Origin: Candidatus Eisenbacteria bacterium
GTDB lineage: Bacteria > Eisenbacteria > RBG-16-71-46 > SZUA-252
Reading direction: 5' to 3'
Assembly (NCBI GenBank): GCA_005893305.1
Contig: VBOZ01000031.1
Span: 29,460 to 65,273 of the forward strand
DNA: 35,814 nucleotides
A program made the translations under genes and the position numbers. Positions 24,679-35,630 of this stretch are shown in pieces. The first letter of the stretch is position 1; each line of letters starts with the position of its first letter. The notes under the pieces are model-generated. The model did not search any database, was not told where the DNA came from, and saw nothing but the letters and a program-made list of their open reading frames with translations.

Positions 24679-25107
24679 ATGGCGACACGCATCCTGGTAG
24701 TGGAAGACGATCCGATGAACGCGAAGCTCTTCCAGCTCATCCTCACCCGGGCGGCGCAGTTCGAGGTGGAGGTGACGGAGGATCCCGCGCACGTCGTCGC
24801 CCAAGCGCGGTCGGGAGGGGCGGACCTGATCATCATGGACGTGTCGCTCTCGAACAGCCTCTGGGACGGGGTTCCCGTCGACGGTCTGGAGATCTGCAGG
24901 CGGCTGAAGAGCGATCCCGAGACGAAGCGCGTGCCAATCTTGTTGGCGACCGCGCACGCCATGAAGGGCTCGCGGGAACGATTTCTTAAAGATTCCGGAG
25001 CCGATGACTACATTTCCAAACCGATCGTGAGCGCCGACGAGCTGATCAGCCGGATCCGCGCGCTGCTCGAGAAGGGGGCAAATGCCACACCACCTGCTCC
25101 TCGTTGA
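24679..25107 (+). CDS. single-domain response regulator
   Basis: 142 residues, only a receiver domain. ILVVEDDPMNAKLFQLIL carries the acidic pair; LIIMDVSLSN has the phospho-accepting Asp. LLATAHA gives the conserved Thr switch and DYISKPI the Lys. There is no output domain, so it would act by phosphotransfer or protein contact (CheY/DivK-like). The sequence after the phospho-Asp carries a few extra residues (SNSLWDGVPVDG) compared with ordinary receivers. ATG 24679 is preceded by GAGGAG, which overlaps the kinase stop. Its 3' end overlaps the next gene by 26 bases. Confidence 0.9.
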   Translation: MATRILVVEDDPMNAKLFQLILTRAAQFEVEVTEDPAHVVAQARSGGADLIIMDVSLSNSLWDGVPVDGLEICRRLKSDPETKRVPILLATAHAMKGSRERFLKDSGADDYISKPIVSADELISRIRALLEKGANATPPAPR

Positions 25108-25906
25108 CGACGAGGCTCATAATCGGAAGCTCCTGCGCATGGTCCTGCGTCAGGGCGAATACGAATTTCTCGAGGCCGAGAACGGAAATCAGGCGCTCGA
25201 GATTCTCGAGAAGCAGAAGATCGATCTCATCCTCCTCGACCTGATGATGCCGTCGCCGAACGGGTTCGATGTCCTCCTGGCGGTCAAGAAGAACGATCGG
25301 CTTCGGGACATTCCCGTGCTCGTGGCCAGCGCGTCGACCGCGCCCGACGACATCGAGCGGAGCCTGACGCTCGGAGCGGCGGACTACTTCATGAAGCCGC
25401 TCACCGAGTGGGACATTCGCTTCCAGCTCCCGATCAAGGTTCGGAACGCGCTCGCCGTCAATCAGGCCTCCGAGGAGCGTCTCCGCGCGGAGCGGATGAA
25501 GGCGGTCTCGGCCATGGCGGTCGCCTTGAACCACGAGATCAACAATCCCCTGCAAGTGATCCAGGGCAACGCCCAGCTCCTATTCGTCCACCCCGGCCTG
25601 CCGCCCGAGACCCGGGACAAAGTCGCTCGCATCCGGGCGGCGACGGAGACGATCGCTGGGCTCACGCACCGGATCGCGGCGCTCCGCGACATCGTGACGG
25701 TCGAATATCCAGCCGGGAACAAGACGACGGTTCCGATGGTCAACTTCAAGGCGTCGCCCGATGGCGGGGCGGCGAAAGGGCAGGAGGCGGGGAAGGGCCA
25801 AGCAGGGATCGGCGGCGGGCCGGCCAAGGGTGCGCCCGAGGCGAAGGGCCCCGAGACGAATCCGGCCGTCAAATCCCCAGAGTCGGGTAGATCCAGTCCA
25901 GAATGA
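25082..25906 (+). CDS. receiver plus HisKA-type DHp protein lacking an ATPase domain
   Basis: 274 residues. The receiver (about 1-125) has LLLVDDEAHNRKLLRMVL, ILLDLMMPSPNGFDVLL with the phospho-Asp, ASASTAP and DYFMKPL. A helical segment leads to a DHp domain (about 140-212) with the H-box ALNHEINNPLQVIQGNAQLL and the expected second helix (RDKVARIRAATETIAGLTHR). No N-, G1- or G2-box follows. Instead there is a short TVEYPAGNKTTVPMVNF segment and a 45-residue Gly/Ala/Lys/Pro-rich tail. The protein could receive and pass phosphate but could not autophosphorylate alone. It is third in the operon and convergent with the next gene (38-base overlap). Confidence 0.85.
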   Translation: MPHHLLLVDDEAHNRKLLRMVLRQGEYEFLEAENGNQALEILEKQKIDLILLDLMMPSPNGFDVLLAVKKNDRLRDIPVLVASASTAPDDIERSLTLGAADYFMKPLTEWDIRFQLPIKVRNALAVNQASEERLRAERMKAVSAMAVALNHEINNPLQVIQGNAQLLFVHPGLPPETRDKVARIRAATETIAGLTHRIAALRDIVTVEYPAGNKTTVPMVNFKASPDGGAAKGQEAGKGQAGIGGGPAKGAPEAKGPETNPAVKSPESGRSSPE

Positions 25907-26510
25907 GGAAGTTCAGCCGCCCGATGAGGAGCGCCACGCGCCCCATCACCGTGAACCCGAACGCGGCGCCGAAGGAGATCATGAGGAACCAGATTCCGAG
26001 ACGCGAGATTCGCCTCGTGATCGGTCCCTGCTCCCTCGAGAAGAAGAAGTAGACCAGGACGCTGAAGACCCCCAAAACGTAGACGAGCGAGAAGAACGTC
26101 GCCCGGTCGAGGCTCGAGAGGGGCAGGATGGCTCGGGCTAGCTGCGGCAGCACCTCCCCGTGGATCTTCCTCGTGAAATCCAGCCCGATGTAGTACGCCA
26201 CGTAGATCGCGAGCGCGTACCGCGAGACCCACCCGATCTTCGGCGCGTACCTCATGTAGAGGAGGACGCCCAGCAGCCCGGGAACCACCAGGTCCCAGTT
26301 CTGGCCGAAATCCTCCCGCATCGGCGCGAAGAGGTTTGGCAGAAGCGTTTGGTTCAGAACGATCCCGACGTAGTAGCCGAGCGAGACGCCGGCGAAGAGG
26401 CTCTCCGCGAAACGGAAGAAGGGGTTGTCCTTGTAGAGGAACGTGAGGCACGCGATCGTCAGGAACGCCGCGATCCAGACGCCGATCTCGGGAGGGTGCA
26501 TTCCGCTCAC
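25869..26510 (-). CDS. polytopic membrane protein of unknown function (operon gene 4)
   Basis: 213 residues from GTG 26510, which overlaps the upstream stop (GTGA); an ATG at 26501 is an alternative. About six hydrophobic helices are visible, beginning IGVWIAAFLTIACLTFLYKD, then the FFRFAESLFAGVSLGYYVGI segment, a re-entrant-like LVVPGLLGVLLYMRYAPKIG, and a C-terminal LIGRLNFLILDWIYP. The acidic/aromatic loop DNPFFRFAE between helices one and two looks conserved-type. I do not recognise a named family. It is the last member of the four-gene membrane operon. Confidence 0.68.
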   Translation of the reverse strand: MSGMHPPEIGVWIAAFLTIACLTFLYKDNPFFRFAESLFAGVSLGYYVGIVLNQTLLPNLFAPMREDFGQNWDLVVPGLLGVLLYMRYAPKIGWVSRYALAIYVAYYIGLDFTRKIHGEVLPQLARAILPLSSLDRATFFSLVYVLGVFSVLVYFFFSREQGPITRRISRLGIWFLMISFGAAFGFTVMGRVALLIGRLNFLILDWIYPTLGI

Positions 26511-27388
26511 GCCCTCGCTTTCGCGCTCGCCCTGCGCTGCCGGAAATAGGCGACGTTGCCGAGGAGCAGGAGAAGAAGGATGACCGTGTGGAGCACGGTC
26601 TGCCCGTCCATCCCCTTGGTCGCCGTGAAGGCGCGCGTGGTCGTGTAGAACGTCGCCAGCTGGGGGTATCGGGCCCGAAGGAGGCTCTCGTACTCGGCCG
26701 CACCCTTCATCCCGCCCACCATGCCGACGAGCTGCCCCGAGTTGAGGTAGGCATAGTACTTGGGGGCGCCCACCGCCGTCGGCCCGATGATGACGGGTAT
26801 CCCCACCTGGGGATGGACCTGCGTGATCCACCACTCCCCGATAATCCCGGTCGCGGCCGTGAAGACGACCTTCACCTGCCGGAGGTCGTGGACCCCCTTC
26901 ATGAGCGGAATCTCGGAGATGGGCTTGCCGTGGACATCGGTCGGAAAGGCCCCGGCGATGTCCTCGCCCATGTGGCGCATCACGGCAGCGGCCCCGTCCT
27001 TGTATCCCAAGTTGACGTAGTCGACGCCGTCCCGAAGGTTCGGGAGCTCCTCCGTGATCTTCGCGACCACGTTGTTGGCGAGCCCAAGGCCGCCGAGCGG
27101 ATAGAGCGCGCAGACGATGAAGCGGAGCTTCTTCAGAGCGCACTGGCGCATGACCGCCTCGGCCATCGGATCGTTCTCGGGCGCGGAAGACGGACCGTAG
27201 TCGAAGGAGATCAGGACGACGTCGCCTTCGTGGAGCGCCTCGATGAATTCGAACGCCGCCCGCGTCGGGCCGGTCGTGGTCACGGGGAGCCCGATCGGGA
27301 TCACGATCGGCGTCGCGACGCTCAGCAGCACGATGAGGAAGATCCACCGCCGGTCGAGGTTGACGATCCGATCGAAGAATCCCGCCAC
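26507..27388 (-). CDS. two-helix-anchored protein with a large soluble domain, unknown function (operon gene 3)
   Basis: 293 residues. An N-terminal TM helix (about 16-38, RWIFLIVLLSVATPIVIPIG) and a C-terminal TM helix (about 262-282) flank a soluble domain of about 220 residues. The domain reads like an alternating alpha/beta fold: VVLISFDYGPSSAPENDPMA, FIVCALYPLGG, VDYVNLGYKDGAAAVM, AFPTDVHGKP, VKVVFTAAT, IPVIIGPTAVGAPKYYAYL and GQLVGMVGGMKGAAEYE. The DYGPS, NLGYKDG and GGMKGAAEYE segments look like ligand-binding loops. The orientation is not certain. It is coupled to its neighbours (1-base gap upstream, GTGA overlap downstream). I recall similar proteins beside the other members of this operon in unrelated phyla, all unnamed. 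Confidence 0.7.
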   Translation of the reverse strand: MAGFFDRIVNLDRRWIFLIVLLSVATPIVIPIGLPVTTTGPTRAAFEFIEALHEGDVVLISFDYGPSSAPENDPMAEAVMRQCALKKLRFIVCALYPLGGLGLANNVVAKITEELPNLRDGVDYVNLGYKDGAAAVMRHMGEDIAGAFPTDVHGKPISEIPLMKGVHDLRQVKVVFTAATGIIGEWWITQVHPQVGIPVIIGPTAVGAPKYYAYLNSGQLVGMVGGMKGAAEYESLLRARYPQLATFYTTTRAFTATKGMDGQTVLHTVILLLLLLGNVAYFRQRRASAKARA

Positions 27389-27389
27389 C

Positions 27390-28190
27390 CTAGTCCCCCT
27401 TCCCCAGGCCCAGGTAGCCGCGCTCGATGCCGAGGATGACGCGGAGCGCCATCGATGCGGCGCCCAGGGCCGCGCCGATGATGATCCCCGACTGCGCGGC
27501 GCCGTTCGGCGTCTGCATGATCCACTCGGTCAGCTTGCCGAGACCCTGGCTCGCGGCTGCCGCGGCCGGCTGGATGGAGGGAATCGGAGCGGCGAGAAGC
27601 TCCAGCAGCGGAACGCGGCCCATCATGATGAGGGCGGCCGCGACGAGGAGGATCGTCGCCTCGGTGTTTCGCGCGCGGAACGCCCGGAACGCGGCGCTCG
27701 CCATGAAGAAGGCCAGAAGCGAGAAAATCGTCGATTGGAGCGGCTGGAAGAACCAGTTGGTCACGTATTGGAACGGCGTCGGCGTTCCGTCGGCGGCGAT
27801 CCCGATTCCCTGCCCCGAGATGCCCCCGTAGATCCCGAAGCCGCCGGTCACGAAGAGCCCGATCAGGAGCACGACCGAGAAGGGCCAGCCCGTTTCGCGG
27901 CGCGAGATCTTCCGCATATTGTTTTGGAGCACGTTCACGATCCCGAGGAGGAGCGCGAAGCCAGCCAGGATGATGAGCCATTGATCGAGCCTTGGGCTCA
28001 TCCCCGTCGGGCCGGCGATGAATTTCTTGGGTACGTACATGGAGAGGATCGGGATCAATCCCGCGAAGACACCGACGAAGATCGGGATCCGGCTCCGGAG
28101 CGCCGGAGCCCGCAGCCCCAGGAAGAATCCGACGATGGGGACGATCGCGAACAGGATGACCAGCGTGACGCGGCCGAATTCGAGGTTCAT
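27390..28190 (-). CDS. polytopic membrane protein of unknown function (operon gene 2)
   Basis: 266 residues with about seven hydrophobic helices: VTLVILFAIVPIVGFFLGL, IPIFVGVFAGLIPILSMYV, QWLIILAGFALLLGIVNVL, WPFSVVLLIGLFVTGGFGIY, STIFSLLAFFMASAAF, ATILLVAAALIMMGRVPLL and a last one near the C-terminus. The basic loop NNMRKISRRETG between helices three and four suggests that loop is cytoplasmic. A Pro/Ala-rich periplasmic-type loop follows helix six. ATG 28190 overlaps the stop of the upstream gene (ATGA). I do not recognise an enzyme or transporter signature. The size and helix count would suit the core of a membrane complex. Confidence 0.68.
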   Translation of the reverse strand: MNLEFGRVTLVILFAIVPIVGFFLGLRAPALRSRIPIFVGVFAGLIPILSMYVPKKFIAGPTGMSPRLDQWLIILAGFALLLGIVNVLQNNMRKISRRETGWPFSVVLLIGLFVTGGFGIYGGISGQGIGIAADGTPTPFQYVTNWFFQPLQSTIFSLLAFFMASAAFRAFRARNTEATILLVAAALIMMGRVPLLELLAAPIPSIQPAAAAASQGLGKLTEWIMQTPNGAAQSGIIIGAALGAASMALRVILGIERGYLGLGKGD

Positions 28191-29377
28191 TGGGTCCGGA
28201 AGAGGTCAGCGACCCCGTGCACGCCGAAGCTCGCGGCCGCGATGCCCAGGATCCCGAGAACGATGAGGATCGCCTTTGCGATGTCCTGCCCGCGCACCGA
28301 GCCAAGCAGCACCGGCTCCCGCGTCAAATAGGCGCTCGCGGCGTAGAGCTCCTCACCGATCAGCGTGTAATCGCAGGTCGCGACGAAGAACGGAAGCTGG
28401 GTGGGATCCGCTTGGCCGGCGATCTGGATCGCGCCCACGGATTGACCCGTCTCGGCGAGGATCAGGGACTCCGCGTAAAAGTAGCCGATGAGGAAGATCG
28501 CGGCGGGCCTCTCCCGGATCATCCTCGCGGAGACCGCCGCCGTGAAGGCGAACTGGTCGTAGGTGACGTAGTTGACCATCTCCTCGCGGAAAAGGTCCGG
28601 CCTTCCTTCCGCCAGATACGCCCCGCGGACCGCCTCGAGCGCGGAAGCGAAGGTGAGCGGATCCTTGTTCGGGACGTCCAGGTCGGCGCCGTACCGCGCG
28701 GTCGCGCGCGCCACGTTCCCCAGGATCGCGATCGAGGCCACACTCTGGATGTCGTCCATGCTTGCGCTGCCGGGGATGTACATCACCTTCTTCCCGATCT
28801 CGGTCGCGCGCCCGATCGCTTCGTCGAGAGCGTTCAGCCCCGCGATTTTCCGGATGAAGATGTTCTTCCCGGACCGGGCCACGCCGATCGAGCCCAGGAT
28901 GATCCCGATGAAGAGGACCACCGCGATCAGCGAGTTCGTCCGCTCAGAGCGAAACCAGTCGTCGTGCGAGGCCGCCGGATCGCTCACCACGGGCGGGCCC
29001 ACGGCCCCGGCGATGCCCGAGGAATCGGCGGTCGCGGCCGAGCGGACGCGGATTTCGTATCGGTAGACGTTCCCGTCGCGGGCCGTGGTGTCGACATGGC
29101 GGCCGACTCCGGGCTTCACCTCCGCCACCTCGGTCCATTCGTCCGCCGGCGGCTGTGCGCGGCGGATCTCGACCATGGCGTCGGCGGGCAGGCCGGGCGG
29201 ATCCTGCCACGTCAGGAGGATCGCGTCCCCCGAGTCACCGGGGCGGTCCACGGCGGTAAAGGAGAGCGGCGCTGGAATCTCGGGGGGCGCCGGCGGCAGC
29301 GTGCCTGTCGGCGTGGCGGCGGCGTTGGGGGCCGCGACGAGAAGCGCGAGGAGGGATAACCCTGCCGCCAATCTCAC
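28187..29377 (-). CDS. exported FN3-like plus membrane-anchored domain protein (DUF6754-like), operon gene 1
   Basis: 396 residues from GTG 29377. A signal peptide (MRLAAGLSLLALLVAAPNAA) is followed by a fibronectin-III-like domain (about 35-125, ILLTWQDPPG, VYRYEIRVRS). A TM helix follows (about 150-170), then a soluble domain of about 190 residues, probably cytoplasmic. That domain has GKKVMYIPGSASMDDIQSVA, AILGNVARATARYG, DVPNKDPLTFASALEAVRGA, GYFYAESLILAETG and ATCDYTLIGEELYAASAYL. A C-terminal TM helix (about 365-390) ends it. From memory this domain is the uncharacterised DUF6754; I could not verify that. It heads the four-gene operon and has its own promoter. Confidence 0.74.
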   Translation of the reverse strand: MRLAAGLSLLALLVAAPNAAATPTGTLPPAPPEIPAPLSFTAVDRPGDSGDAILLTWQDPPGLPADAMVEIRRAQPPADEWTEVAEVKPGVGRHVDTTARDGNVYRYEIRVRSAATADSSGIAGAVGPPVVSDPAASHDDWFRSERTNSLIAVVLFIGIILGSIGVARSGKNIFIRKIAGLNALDEAIGRATEIGKKVMYIPGSASMDDIQSVASIAILGNVARATARYGADLDVPNKDPLTFASALEAVRGAYLAEGRPDLFREEMVNYVTYDQFAFTAAVSARMIRERPAAIFLIGYFYAESLILAETGQSVGAIQIAGQADPTQLPFFVATCDYTLIGEELYAASAYLTREPVLLGSVRGQDIAKAILIVLGILGIAAASFGVHGVADLFRTQ

Positions 29378-29385
29378 AACCGCGG

Positions 29386-29415
29386 AGCCTAGGTGAGTCT
29401 TCCCGCGGGTGTCAA
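29386..29415 (-). promoter_or_regulatory. promoter of the four-gene membrane operon, apparently leaderless
   Basis: On the minus strand TTGACA (29415-29410) is separated by 18 bases from TAGGCT (29391-29386, three of six). The GTG start at 29377 follows the -10 after 8 bases. The -35 overlaps the stop codon of the upstream methyltransferase gene. No Shine-Dalgarno is present. Confidence 0.48.
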
Positions 29416-30410
29416 CGAGGTTTTCGCCCGCGAAGCCTCATGATCGGCCACACATAGACCGAGAGAGCGGGCCAGCGCGAGCAGAAGAACCGGAGGAAGT
29501 CCTTGATCCATTGCCTCGGGTGGACCTCGATTCCGCGCGAGAGGAAGGCCGGGAGGATCTCCGGCTCGAGGCCCGCCTCGCGGAACTTGCGCATCATCCA
29601 GAACGGGTTCAGCTCCCGCTCCGGGTACTGGCCGTCCCGAGGGTCCCGGTAGCGGAACGCGGGCTCGCGCGCCACGCGCCCCGTCTCGAGGAGTTCCCGG
29701 ACTCCCGCCTGGATCTCCGACCCCACGAGGCCGCGCGTCCGCCGGGTCGCCTCGAGAAGCTGGTTTGAGGAGAGGTTCGGAAAGTGCTCGCCGATCAGCG
29801 CGCGCCGGGCCTCGAAGTAGGGGCCGTCGGGCTCGTGCTCCATCCGCTTCCACCCGCGTCGCCTCCGCGGGCGCGCCGGGAGATAGAGGGAGTTGTTCTC
29901 GTCGCTCAGGAAGAAGAGGCCGCCCGGCCGGAGTAGGCGGTGCGCTTCCCGGAGGAATCCCTCCAGGTCGCGCACGTGAGAGATGACGCAGTTCGCCATC
30001 ACGCCGTCGAACGAGCCGGCGGGAAATTCCATCCCGATTCCGTCGCCGAAGCGCGACTCGAGATTCGTGGCCGGGGGGTCCACCTTCTCGGCCAGGTACG
30101 TCCCGACCGCGACCATGTCGCGATCGATCTCGGTCGCGACGACGCGCCGCGCGCCGTAGATCGCCACGAGCAGCGCCTCGAGGCCGAATCCCGCGCCCAG
30201 ATCGAGGACGTCCTTCCCGTCGCATTCCATGTAATGGAACATCTCCCGGCACTTCTGGAAGATGTGCTCGATCCTCGCCGGATTCCGAATGATGCGGAGA
30301 TAGGAGTAATACGTGAGGAAATATTCGGGGAATTGCGCGCGGAGGTCCGCGTCGCTCTGCATGAGAATTTCGCGAAGCGACGCCAGTCGCCGCGCGGCGA
30401 CGTCGGACAC
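29412..30410 (-). CDS. class I SAM-dependent methyltransferase
   Basis: 332 residues from GTG 30410, whose G is the last base of the upstream TAG (TAGTG). The Rossmann core starts at about residue 80: KDVLDLGAGFGLEALLVA is motif I, VVATEIDRDMVAVGTYLA gives the acidic residue after beta-2, and RFGDGIGMEFPAGSFDGVMA with NCVISHVRDLEGFLREAHRL plus LLRPGGLFFLSDEN covers motifs II to IV. An N-terminal helical region (FPEYFLTYYSYLRIIRNPAR) and a long C-terminal helical part end in aromatic-rich KDFLRFFCSRWPALSVYVWP. The substrate is unknown. Similar methyltransferases accompany glycan or lipid genes, and this one lies next to a polysaccharide cluster but is coupled to a regulator. Confidence 0.82.
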   Translation of the reverse strand: MSDVAARRLASLREILMQSDADLRAQFPEYFLTYYSYLRIIRNPARIEHIFQKCREMFHYMECDGKDVLDLGAGFGLEALLVAIYGARRVVATEIDRDMVAVGTYLAEKVDPPATNLESRFGDGIGMEFPAGSFDGVMANCVISHVRDLEGFLREAHRLLRPGGLFFLSDENNSLYLPARPRRRRGWKRMEHEPDGPYFEARRALIGEHFPNLSSNQLLEATRRTRGLVGSEIQAGVRELLETGRVAREPAFRYRDPRDGQYPERELNPFWMMRKFREAGLEPEILPAFLSRGIEVHPRQWIKDFLRFFCSRWPALSVYVWPIMRLRGRKPR

Positions 30411-32195: not shown

Positions 32196-33209
32196 CTAGG
32201 GGGTGGGACCGATTCGTCCCAGGTAGGCCCAAAAAATGGCATATCCGAGCCCAGAAACGAGGACAGCCGCAATCACCGGTTGCGGGTCCGAAAGACCCCA
32301 AACGAGCACTCCGAGGCAGACGTTAAGCGTTACCGCTATGGCGACTATGCCGAGCGCACCCCACTTTCCGCTTCGTCGTCCAAGGCGATGCGTCGTGTGA
32401 TCGACTCCTCCGATATAGATCGGACGACCTCCGACAACGCGAACGACGATGACGAAGATCACGTCGAAGAGCGGGTAGCTGAGAAGTAGGGCCACCGCCG
32501 ACAAGTGTGGGATCGTGGGCGGCCCCTGGAGCGCTTGGAGAGTGAGGGCGGCGAGGGCGAAGCCGAGAAGATGGCTCCCGGCGTCGCCCAAAAAGATCCG
32601 TGCGGGCGGCGCGTTGTAGACGAGAAAACCGGCCCCGGCGCCCACGAGACCCCACGCGAGGATCAAGTCGACCGGCGCGTGATGGAGGAGGCCGATCGCC
32701 ACGAACCCGGCCGCGGTGATCGGGACCGTGGCGCCCACGATTCCATCCATCGCGTCGAGGAAGTTGATCGCGTTCAGGAGCGCCACCACACCCAGGATGG
32801 CCGCGGCGAGCGTGAGCGGACTCGCGCGGATCCATTCGACCTGGGGCCCCCAGAGCACGAGGCAGAGCGCGGCCGCGAGCTGCCCCGCGAGCTTTCCGAG
32901 CGGCGGCATCGGGCGCCGGTCGTCGAGAAGCCCCATTCCGAGGGACAGGGCCGCGCCGATGAAGAAGCCCGGCCGCGGAAGGGCGATTGGAATCGAAAAG
33001 AAGGCGCGCCCGAGCGCGGCGGCGAGAAGGAGCGCGAGCGCGACCGCGACGCCGCCGAGAAGCGGCGTCGGCTCCGCGTGAGACTTTCGCGGATCGGGGT
33101 GATCCAGGTAACCGGTGGTGCGGGCTATCTTGACGAAAATCGGCGTCGTGAGGAGCGCCGACGCGAACGCGAGCGGCGCCACGACAAGGAACGGAAGCGG
33201 TCCGCTCAA
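32196..33209 (-). CDS. undecaprenyl-phosphate sugar-1-phosphate transferase (WecA/MraY-like)
   Basis: 337 residues from TTG 33209, which overlaps the stop of the upstream glycosyltransferase (TTGA). About ten TM helices. Family signatures: YLDHPDPRKSHAEPTPLLGG (the P..R..H....P..GG loop), MGLLDDR (acidic pair), ALLNAINFLDAMDGIVG (catalytic DxxDG region), IFLGDAGSHLLGF, and the C-terminal VDHTTHRLGRR (HHRL-like loop). It would transfer GlcNAc-1-P or a similar sugar-phosphate to undecaprenyl phosphate, the first step of O-antigen, exopolysaccharide or teichoic-like glycans. MraY itself is less likely because the gene is not in a division/peptidoglycan cluster. Confidence 0.87.
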   Translation of the reverse strand: MSGPLPFLVVAPLAFASALLTTPIFVKIARTTGYLDHPDPRKSHAEPTPLLGGVAVALALLLAAALGRAFFSIPIALPRPGFFIGAALSLGMGLLDDRRPMPPLGKLAGQLAAALCLVLWGPQVEWIRASPLTLAAAILGVVALLNAINFLDAMDGIVGATVPITAAGFVAIGLLHHAPVDLILAWGLVGAGAGFLVYNAPPARIFLGDAGSHLLGFALAALTLQALQGPPTIPHLSAVALLLSYPLFDVIFVIVVRVVGGRPIYIGGVDHTTHRLGRRSGKWGALGIVAIAVTLNVCLGVLVWGLSDPQPVIAAVLVSGLGYAIFWAYLGRIGPTP

Positions 33210-34432
33210 ACGGCGGCGGGGATGAAGGGCAGGGGCTTCCGCGTCGGCTTGGGGTGCGCGCCGTTGTTCGACTCGAGCGCCTCGAGCGCGATGTCCCATG
33301 TGAACGTGGAGCGTGCCCAAGCCCGACCCCGCTGCCCTAGCGCCGCGGCGTCGGCGGGATCGCGAATCAACTGCACGATCTGGGCGGCGAGGGCCTCGGG
33401 CTCTATCGCAATGCGCAAGACGTCGTCTGGGACCGGCTCGAGACCGAGCCGCACTGGGGGCGTGGAAACGACCGGAATTCCGCTCGCCAGCGCCTGAATC
33501 ACCTTGGTCTGGAGGCCGGCGGCGAACCGGTGCGGAGCGACGAAGACCGTGGCCGTCATGAGCACGTCCTCGAGGCGCGGCGCATACCCGATGATCCTCA
33601 CCCCGTCGCCCCTCGCCCACGCTCCGAGGGAACCGGAGCTCCTCCCCACGATGTCGAGAGTCGCTTCGGGGACCGCTGCCCTCACTCGTGGAAACACATC
33701 CTGCACCAGGAAACGCACCGCGTCCCGGTTGTGGAACACCTCGTGAAAGCCGAGGAAGAGAAGCCGAGCGGCATCCCGCGGTCCGTTGGGATGAAACGGC
33801 TCGGGACCCAGGCCCATGGGGACGACGCGGATCCGCGCGTCTGGGGCGAGGCCTACGAGGTTCGCGCGCTCCGCCTCGCTGATGACCCAGCATTCGTCGA
33901 AGCGGGGCGCGATCGCGGCCTCGAATCGTTCGATTCGCCTCATCTCCTCACGATAGAGCCAGAGATCGGGGCCGCGGCGAAACGGCAGCGACCTCGCGAT
34001 TCCGGCGGAGATGACGTCGGTGAGATCAAGAATCCAACGGGTGCGATGCTCCTTCATCCGCTCCATGGCGTAGGGGGCCATGCGGAAGAGGTGCGTGTAG
34101 ACCACATCGGGGCGCACGCGCCGGAGCGTCTCGCCGACCTGTTCGCGCATTCGCCTCGAGCGGTAGTACGCGGCCTGCAGCGGCTCCCCGGTGGGAAGCG
34201 CCTTCGCCGAGCGCAGCGTCGAGAGAAGCTTCGGGAGCGGCACGATCCGGATCGACGCGAGAAGCCGTTCGAGCGGCGCGATCGCGGAGGGCTCGGGAAC
34301 GCTCCTGTCGAATGTGACGAGGTGAACCTCATGGCCCGCTTCGGATGCCGTGCGCAGAAAGTGGAAGACGCGGAAGCGGTCGCCCCCCTCGGGTGGAAAC
34401 GGCATGCGGGAGGTCAGGAAGACGACGCGCAT
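33206..34432 (-). CDS. GT-B glycosyltransferase (GT4 group)
   Basis: 408 residues from ATG 34432. N-terminal acceptor domain: VVFLTSRMPFPPEGGDRFRV and FHFLRTASEAGHEVHLVTFD. C-terminal donor domain: LLFLGFHEVFHNRDAVRFLV, ATLDIVGRS, GVRIIGYAPRLEDVLMTA, VFVAPHRFAAGLQTKVIQAL and ASGIPVVSTP, the latter being the usual nucleotide-sugar binding block. It resembles the sugar transferases of exopolysaccharide clusters. It is coupled to the WecA/MraY-like gene (TTGA overlap), so it probably adds a sugar to the same lipid-linked intermediate. A TACACT lies 6 bases before the ATG and no Shine-Dalgarno is seen. Confidence 0.85.
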   Translation of the reverse strand: MRVVFLTSRMPFPPEGGDRFRVFHFLRTASEAGHEVHLVTFDRSVPEPSAIAPLERLLASIRIVPLPKLLSTLRSAKALPTGEPLQAAYYRSRRMREQVGETLRRVRPDVVYTHLFRMAPYAMERMKEHRTRWILDLTDVISAGIARSLPFRRGPDLWLYREEMRRIERFEAAIAPRFDECWVISEAERANLVGLAPDARIRVVPMGLGPEPFHPNGPRDAARLLFLGFHEVFHNRDAVRFLVQDVFPRVRAAVPEATLDIVGRSSGSLGAWARGDGVRIIGYAPRLEDVLMTATVFVAPHRFAAGLQTKVIQALASGIPVVSTPPVRLGLEPVPDDVLRIAIEPEALAAQIVQLIRDPADAAALGQRGRAWARSTFTWDIALEALESNNGAHPKPTRKPLPFIPAAV

Positions 34433-34523
34433 GGCCGCAGTGTAGCACGAGTCGGGTCGTGATAGACTCCGCCGTCTTGGGAGCCAATGACAGGCCTCAC
34501 ACTCCCGCTCGCGCCGGCGCGCC

Positions 34524-35630
34524 GTGAAGATTCTCATCGTCGATACCTACTATCCGGCCTTCCTGCGATCTTTCTACTCGGAACGCCCCGGCCTTGAGCG
34601 CCGCCCGTACGCGGAGCAATGGCGCGCCCTCATGGACCAATGCTTCGGGGTGGCCGACTTCTATTCCACGAACCTGGTCCGGCTCGGGTTGGAAGCAACG
34701 GAGGTCGTCGCGAACGCGGGGGCACTCCAGCTCTGCTGGGCCCGCGAGCACGGTCTCGGTCTCCGCTACCGTGTCACCCGGCGGCGCGGGCCGGGGGGGA
34801 TCCCGGTCCCTTGGGTATCGAAGAGCTGGATCTACCCAGTATTGCGCGCGCAGATTCAGGCATTCCGACCCGACATCGTTCACATCCAGGATCCGGCCGC
34901 AACCGATCCAGCGTTCCTGCGCGAGATCCGATCCGACGCGCGGCGGATCACGGGCCAGATCGCGAGCCCGTACCCTCCGCGGGCGGACTTTCGCGCCTAC
35001 GACCTCATGCTCTCGTCGATGCCGCATTTCGTCGAGGCATTCCGCAAATCGGGGATTCGCAGCGAGCTCTTCCACCTCGGATTCGAGCGCACGGTGCTGC
35101 GGCGGCTCGGCCCCGCGGCATCGCGGGACGCGGTCTTCGTCGGCGGCCTCTCCCGATCCCACAAGGAGCGAATCCAATTTTTCGAAACCCTGGCGAGGCG
35201 ACGGCCCATCGAGTGGTTTGGCTACGGTCTCGAGCAGCTCGCGCGCGGGTCTCCACTTCGCGCGTGCTACCGGGGACCGGCGTGGGGTCTCGCGATGTAC
35301 GAGGTGCTGGCGGGCGCTCGCATCGCGCTCAACCATCACATCGACGTGGCCGGGCGCTACGCGAACAACATGCGTCTCTATGAGGCGACGGGGGTGGGCG
35401 CATTACTGCTCACGGATTGGAAGGAGAACCTGCCTCAGCTCTACGAGCCCGGAAAGGAAGTCGCCGCGTACCGGAGCGTCGAGGAGTGCGCCGATCTCAT
35501 GGAGCATTACCTGGCGCGGGAAGACGAGCGCGCGACCGTCGCGCAAGCCGGCCAGGCGCGCACGCTCCGCGATCACACCTACGAGCAACGGATGCGCGAA
35601 TTCGTCGAGCTCGCGCGCCCGCTTCTGTAG
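34524..35630 (+). CDS. glycosyltransferase with CgeB-like C-terminal domain
   Basis: 368 residues from GTG 34524; no ribosome site is visible and no earlier in-frame start exists. The N-terminal half begins KILIVDTYYPAFLRSFY, followed by FRPDIVHIQDPAATDPAFLR. The C-terminal half has AVFVGGLSRSHKERIQFFET, RPIEWFGYG, WGLAMYEVLAGARIALNHHI and NMRLYEATGVGALLLTDWKE, then NLPQLYEPGKEVAAY. This last stretch is the pattern of the CgeB/Glyco_trans_1-type domain used for surface glycan sugars. It diverges from the GT4 gene (91-base gap without a clear promoter) and reads into the next cluster genes. Confidence 0.83.
   Translation: MKILIVDTYYPAFLRSFYSERPGLERRPYAEQWRALMDQCFGVADFYSTNLVRLGLEATEVVANAGALQLCWAREHGLGLRYRVTRRRGPGGIPVPWVSKSWIYPVLRAQIQAFRPDIVHIQDPAATDPAFLREIRSDARRITGQIASPYPPRADFRAYDLMLSSMPHFVEAFRKSGIRSELFHLGFERTVLRRLGPAASRDAVFVGGLSRSHKERIQFFETLARRRPIEWFGYGLEQLARGSPLRACYRGPAWGLAMYEVLAGARIALNHHIDVAGRYANNMRLYEATGVGALLLTDWKENLPQLYEPGKEVAAYRSVEECADLMEHYLAREDERATVAQAGQARTLRDHTYEQRMREFVELARPLL

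Follow-up and report, generated by a model that had tools for sequence, protein, structure and literature searches.

In the 35,814-nucleotide stretch of contig VBOZ01000031.1 from a Candidatus Eisenbacteria bacterium analyzed herein (the window), four adjacent minus-strand genes arranged in the order A-B-C-D (positions 25869-29377) were found to constitute an inherited block, and their products are very probably the subunits of a single membrane complex. Gene A encodes a protein with a domain of the family DUF6754, and in its core version the block is extended by four further genes, one of which encodes an actin/Hsp70-type ATPase.

Organization and transcription of the four-gene block

Gene A (28187-29377, minus strand) encodes a 396-residue protein with a signal-like N-terminus (residues 1-28), an FN3 domain (approximately 38-113), a transmembrane (TM) helix (144-168), a presumably cytoplasmic DUF6754 domain (approximately 176-352), and a second TM helix (355-383). 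It is followed on the same strand by gene B (27390-28190; 266 residues), specifying a seven-TM protein of no named family, gene C (26507-27388; 293 residues), whose product appears to hold an extracytoplasmic Rossmann-like alpha/beta domain between two TM helices, and gene D (25869-26501 with an ATG start or to 26510 with a GTG start; 210-213 residues), encoding a polytopic protein with four strong and about six likely TM segments. The tight coupling recognized in the first-pass annotation was confirmed by the positions of the open reading frames, as A and B overlap by ATGA and B and C are separated by 1 base. The GTGA junction described between C and D was likewise found, the in-frame GTG at 26510 overlapping the stop codon of C, with the ATG at 26501 as the alternative start of D. 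Since GC3 was 0.88-0.91 in all four genes and more than 60 homologs could be aligned for each, they are not chance frames. At its 3' end, D converges with a plus-strand receiver/HisKA gene (25082-25906), with which it overlaps by 38 bases (25869-25906).

The block had been thought to possess its own promoter. Although a generic sigma-70 promoter scan returned no site, this null result was overturned by a conserved element, TTGACA-N18-TAGGCT (29378-29415, minus strand), located such that the GTG of gene A lies 8 nt past the second hexamer. The form TTGACA-N17/18-TAG[GT]CT, positioned 7-8 nt from the start codon of A, was shared by the window and five relatives (L052, L057, L058, L059, and L060), and no other site was detected on either strand of the 3.24 Mb of both-strand sequence of the compared loci. 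Because the promoter is only 7-8 nt from the start codon, the transcript of the block is predicted from the sequence to be leaderless. An Rfam search gave no RNA element near the operon. The upstream neighbor of A is a SAM methyltransferase gene (29412-30410, minus strand), an arrangement kept in close relatives and limited to the family of the window; in this subfamily, the methyltransferase, a sigma-54 activator, and a WecA-like gene lie upstream. Further upstream of the block in the window (32196-34537), the WecA-like transferase gene is accompanied by that of a glycosyltransferase resembling TIGR03087 (PEP-CTERM/XrtA system) at a score below the cut-off.

Distribution and co-inheritance of A-B-C-D

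DUF6754 was present in 45 of the 47 genomes of Candidatus Eisenbacteria, in one to seven copies each, and the window block is one of three paralogs in its source genome. The named nearest relatives were mostly from the same phylum. The similar clusters that had been suggested for other phyla were indeed encountered in Planctomycetota, Firmicutes, and Binatota, where DUF6754 occurred in 49/199, 25/300, and 1/99 genomes, respectively, as well as in 6/8 genomes of one further phylum. Searches for gene A on plasmids gave no match, nor did searches of viral contigs with its peptide patterns.

The proposal of a fixed unit depended on the four genes travelling together in other genomes, and this they proved to do. 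The four adjacent same-strand genes in A-B-C-D order were complete at 84 of the compared loci (the window and 83 others), five further blocks being cut by contig ends, and the median intergenic gaps within the blocks were 26, 12.5, and 10 bases. In Firmicutes, a profile of C detected 24 of the same 25 DUF6754 genomes and no others (p=1e-34). The copy numbers of A and B were equal in 43 of the 47 genomes of the window's phylum, the four mismatches all falling in assemblies of hundreds of contigs, and D behaved alike. In addition, the trees of A, C, and B+D had 29-31 of 35-40 strong splits in common between genes. Three real exceptions to the block were observed, two of which speak against a single complex: in a planctomycete (G462, L143 8722-10095), A is preceded by the genes MutL and c7 described below, with B-C-D absent within the 20 kb examined, and at L152 A stands alone. 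The third, L112, is a degenerate copy.

At the other extreme, the 1.5-Mb genome of a Ca. Fermentithermobacillaceae MAG (G056, loci L093-L105) carried 15 DUF6754 loci, with A-B-C-D blocks lying back-to-back or closely spaced (L094, L104, and L105). A very divergent full block was found in a low-GC Firmicutes genome (G154, L136 8510-11286); it shares the adjoining tsaE-tsaB with its MutL-linked relatives but lacks MutL-c7.

An eight-gene core unit with an actin/Hsp70-type ATPase

Clustering of the neighboring genes revealed that the core version of the block is larger than the four genes originally noted, adding a GlmL-like ATPase (MutL), c7, c5, and c12. In Eisenbacteria and Planctomycetota the core form is c12-c5-MutL-c7-A-B-C-D, as exemplified by L037, the second copy of the source genome, and by L145 and L149 in Planctomycetota, with L144 of the latter phylum lacking c12. 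The order in Firmicutes was c5-A-B-C-D-MutL-c7 (L113-L117), and that in Binatota c5-A-B-C-D (L065 by gene call; L066-L068 and L072 by six-frame search). Neither c5, MutL, nor c7 adjoins the window copy; in the source genome the core unit is found at L037.

MutL is an ASKHA-type (actin/Hsp70-type) ATPase that matched PF13941 over 450 positions and keeps the phosphate-loop motifs DCGSTTTK and DIGGATTD, while its scores against TIGR01319 (162 and 176 bits) fell below the cut-off of 204. Among the other additions, c7 gave a weak match to an RnfC-like barrel-sandwich, c5 is a small protein, and c12 is a membrane protein. Across 300 Firmicutes genomes, c7 and DUF6754 occurred together in 23 and alone in 1 and 2, respectively (Fisher p=4.7e-31), and this genome-level co-occurrence holds also where the two are not neighbors. 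Tandem MutL-c7-(c5)-MutL-c7 arrays were observed at three Firmicutes loci (L133, L134, and L135), where c7 is multi-copy and A-B-C-D is found elsewhere in the genome; at L137 (G068), MutL-c7 is present although a search of that genome gave no DUF6754, so the soluble pair can stand alone.

The tree placed the MutL-linked blocks of Eisenbacteria on one side together with those of L113-L117, and the four single-copy genomes examined in one family (L045, L049, L054, and L055) all keep the MutL-linked type. These observations suggest that the MutL-linked type is ancestral.

Features of the four proteins

The domain of the first protein, named in the first-pass annotation as DUF6754, was verified by a match of gene A to PF20539 with 359.8 bits (E 8.4e-108; positions 2-256 of 257) against a curated cut-off of 27 bits, and DUF6754 was the sole Pfam or NCBIfam family above its cut-off for A. 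An AF2 model of A (pLDDT 90.6) consisted of a beta-sandwich, the TM helix 144-168, an alpha/beta domain, and the second TM helix 355-383. The initial description as an FN3-like domain, a TM helix, and a soluble domain was thus correct as regards the FN3 fold (Foldseek E 3.5e-6; FN3-type matches only, among the matches listed) and requires amendment by the additional C-terminal helix, which places the DUF6754 domain between two TM helices. A K/R-rich stretch after the first of these points to a cytoplasmic location of the domain.

No Pfam or NCBIfam match was obtained for B, C, or D. Hydropathy analysis gave the seven hydrophobic segments expected for B and the two flanking TM helices of C, whose alpha/beta domain was modeled with high confidence (AF2 pLDDT 95.8, pTM 0.91); six helices in D are plausible, four segments passing the strict hydropathy cut-off. 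The positive charge at both ends of C suggests that its domain lies outside the cytoplasm. Comparisons by hhalign did not support A and C, or B and D, as mutual duplicates.

The loops that had looked conserved at first sight are kept in 66-69 homologs as SxDYxPxxxPE, VNLGYKxG, GGLxGAAEYE, and AESLxLAExG, with E234 in the third and E309 in the fourth being invariant. Strongly conserved polar residues were found in the extracytoplasmic domain of C and in the cytoplasmic domain of A, and conserved charged or amide residues lie within hydrophobic segments, namely R234 in B, R84 and R188 in D, and H267 and N278 in the second TM helix of C. As had been proposed, the four proteins may bind a small ligand and assemble in fixed stoichiometry.

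Possible function of the complex

Judging from the paralog expansion, the neighboring peptidases and amidohydrolases, and the topology of the subunits, we tentatively propose transport as the most likely output of the complex. In this scheme, C would capture a small solute on the outer face, the path through the membrane would be built from B and D, the DUF6754 domain of A would couple to the inside, and MutL-c7 would energize, assemble, or regulate the core complex; transport would probably be the uptake of small solutes, the paralogs differing in which amino-acid- or peptide-derived compounds they accept. Compared with the distant genes of the same loci, TldD/PmbA, M20, M29, and M14 peptidases and amidohydrolases were frequent neighbors, and these, together with the 15 copies in a 1.5-Mb genome, give the usual look of substrate-specific transporters. 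The conserved charged or amide residues within hydrophobic segments of B, C, and D likewise speak for transport. Genes for TldD/PmbA-type metallopeptidases adjoin A-B-C-D at L040 (13097-15998), L062 (6692-9611), L044 (12705-13730), and L069 (4743-7414), both in Eisenbacteria, where the first protein bears a twin-arginine-like signal, and in Firmicutes.

Several findings speak against transport. No subunit matched a transporter family of Pfam or NCBIfam, the ATPase partners are not adjacent to many paralogs, including that of the window, the peptidase neighbors are few and partly from related loci (about three independent cases for TldD/PmbA), and the neighboring genes in general differ by clade. 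Moreover, the key residues of the outside domain of C vary little across paralogs, a pattern more in keeping with a single ligand moiety common to all than with many substrates. A narrower version of the proposal, a new class of transporter or gated machine spread over several phyla, in which an ATPase of the ASKHA and not the ABC type drives or regulates a four-subunit membrane complex whose paralogs are specialized by solute, is put forward only as an unlikely one.

The same topology would also suit a ligand-sensing receptor in which C binds a signal outside, the DUF6754 domain of A relays it, and MutL-c7 acts as the effector, no solute being moved. The domain of C is tethered at both ends outside, A crosses the membrane and carries a conserved domain on the cytoplasmic side, and genes for GAF, HisKA, and response-regulator proteins occur among some neighbors, also around the window; however, none of these regulators is a constant partner, and two polytopic proteins exceed the needs of a receptor, which renders sensing improbable. 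The presence of a GlmL-like ATPase in the core cluster raises an idea of similarly low probability, namely that MutL-c7 and A-D make, activate, or recycle a cofactor or a modified substrate. Relatives of GlmL act in the service of B12-dependent mutases; in Eisenbacteria, genes for glycine cleavage and lipoate ligase adjoin the core cluster, and URO-D-like genes adjoin the Firmicutes copies. Nevertheless, the ATPase scored below the GlmL family cut-offs (162 vs 204 bits), the glycine cleavage and lipoate ligase links were observed in one phylum only, and no catalytic motif was recognized in A-D.

A complex for secretion, surface assembly, or polymer export, powered by the ASKHA protein in a layout like that of PilM-PilN-PilO, is very unlikely. 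While it would account for the combination of this ATPase with inner-membrane subunits, for the FN3 domain of A lying outside, and for the WecA-like and glycosyltransferase genes near the window copy, the block is not accompanied by a secretin, pilin, polymerase, or flippase, many forms of A, chiefly in Firmicutes, are too short by their lengths to hold an FN3 domain, and sugar genes are found near the subfamily of the window only. Finally, the block might belong to a known membrane family but have diverged beyond the reach of sequence profiles, and B or D may turn out to be remotely related to a membrane fold already known. For the block this appears somewhat unlikely, as profile searches of the PDB with 64-69 homologs of the proteins gave nothing meaningful and the very confident model of C found no fold match in the PDB by Foldseek with E<1e-3. 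Transport continues to be our working proposal for the output of the A-B-C-D complex.

Comparison with known systems

In agreement with the initial statement that no transporter, enzyme, or secretion signature is recognizable, Pfam, NCBIfam, PDB, and PADLOC searches linked none of the parts confidently to an unrelated system already known, and the suspicion of an undescribed system was supported. An anti-phage defense system was considered and rejected, as no PADLOC profile matched. A literature search, beyond whose reach the subscription literature lay, found no paper mentioning DUF6754 and none on PF13941. Because the set belongs to no known system of the libraries searched and no paper on either family was found, the complex is regarded as new as a system, subject to the reservation on B and D given above. 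That a conserved complex can be near-universal in a phylum, occupy up to 15 loci of a genome of 1.5 Mb, and still carry neither a name nor an assigned function, with three of its four subunits lacking any family model, exposes a clear gap in our picture of bacterial membranes. Some planctomycetes are culturable and amenable to genetic manipulation, and complete planctomycete genomes hold single-copy clusters; these, together with the co-occurring ATPase and c7, therefore offer an experimental entry.

Among characterized proteins, the core ATPase resembles the GlmL/Or-4/MutL family (PF13941, TIGR01319), accessory to B12-dependent mutases, in its PF13941 match and phosphate-loop motifs. It differs in scoring below the TIGR01319, GlmL, and Or-4 cut-offs, in being about 150 residues longer, and in having no mutase adjacent, and it is itself not adjacent to the window copy. 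ABC, TRAP, and TTT transporters consist of several subunits, among them a binding part outside the cytoplasm, and A-D are similar to them in the binding-like domain outside, the two polytopic subunits, the many paralogs per genome, and the enzyme neighbors; in contrast, A-D include neither an ABC ATPase nor a DctM/TctA-type subunit, and the outside domain of C is fixed by two TM helices and has no matched fold. In PilM-PilN-PilO, an actin/Hsp70-type cytoplasmic protein is coupled to small membrane proteins, and the core unit also pairs such a protein with membrane proteins, yet no sequence similarity was found and the block is devoid of pilus or secretion genes. Gene A is a full-length member of the Pfam entry DUF6754 itself; to this entry, which Pfam lists simply as a domain of unknown function, the four- and eight-gene context is added here.
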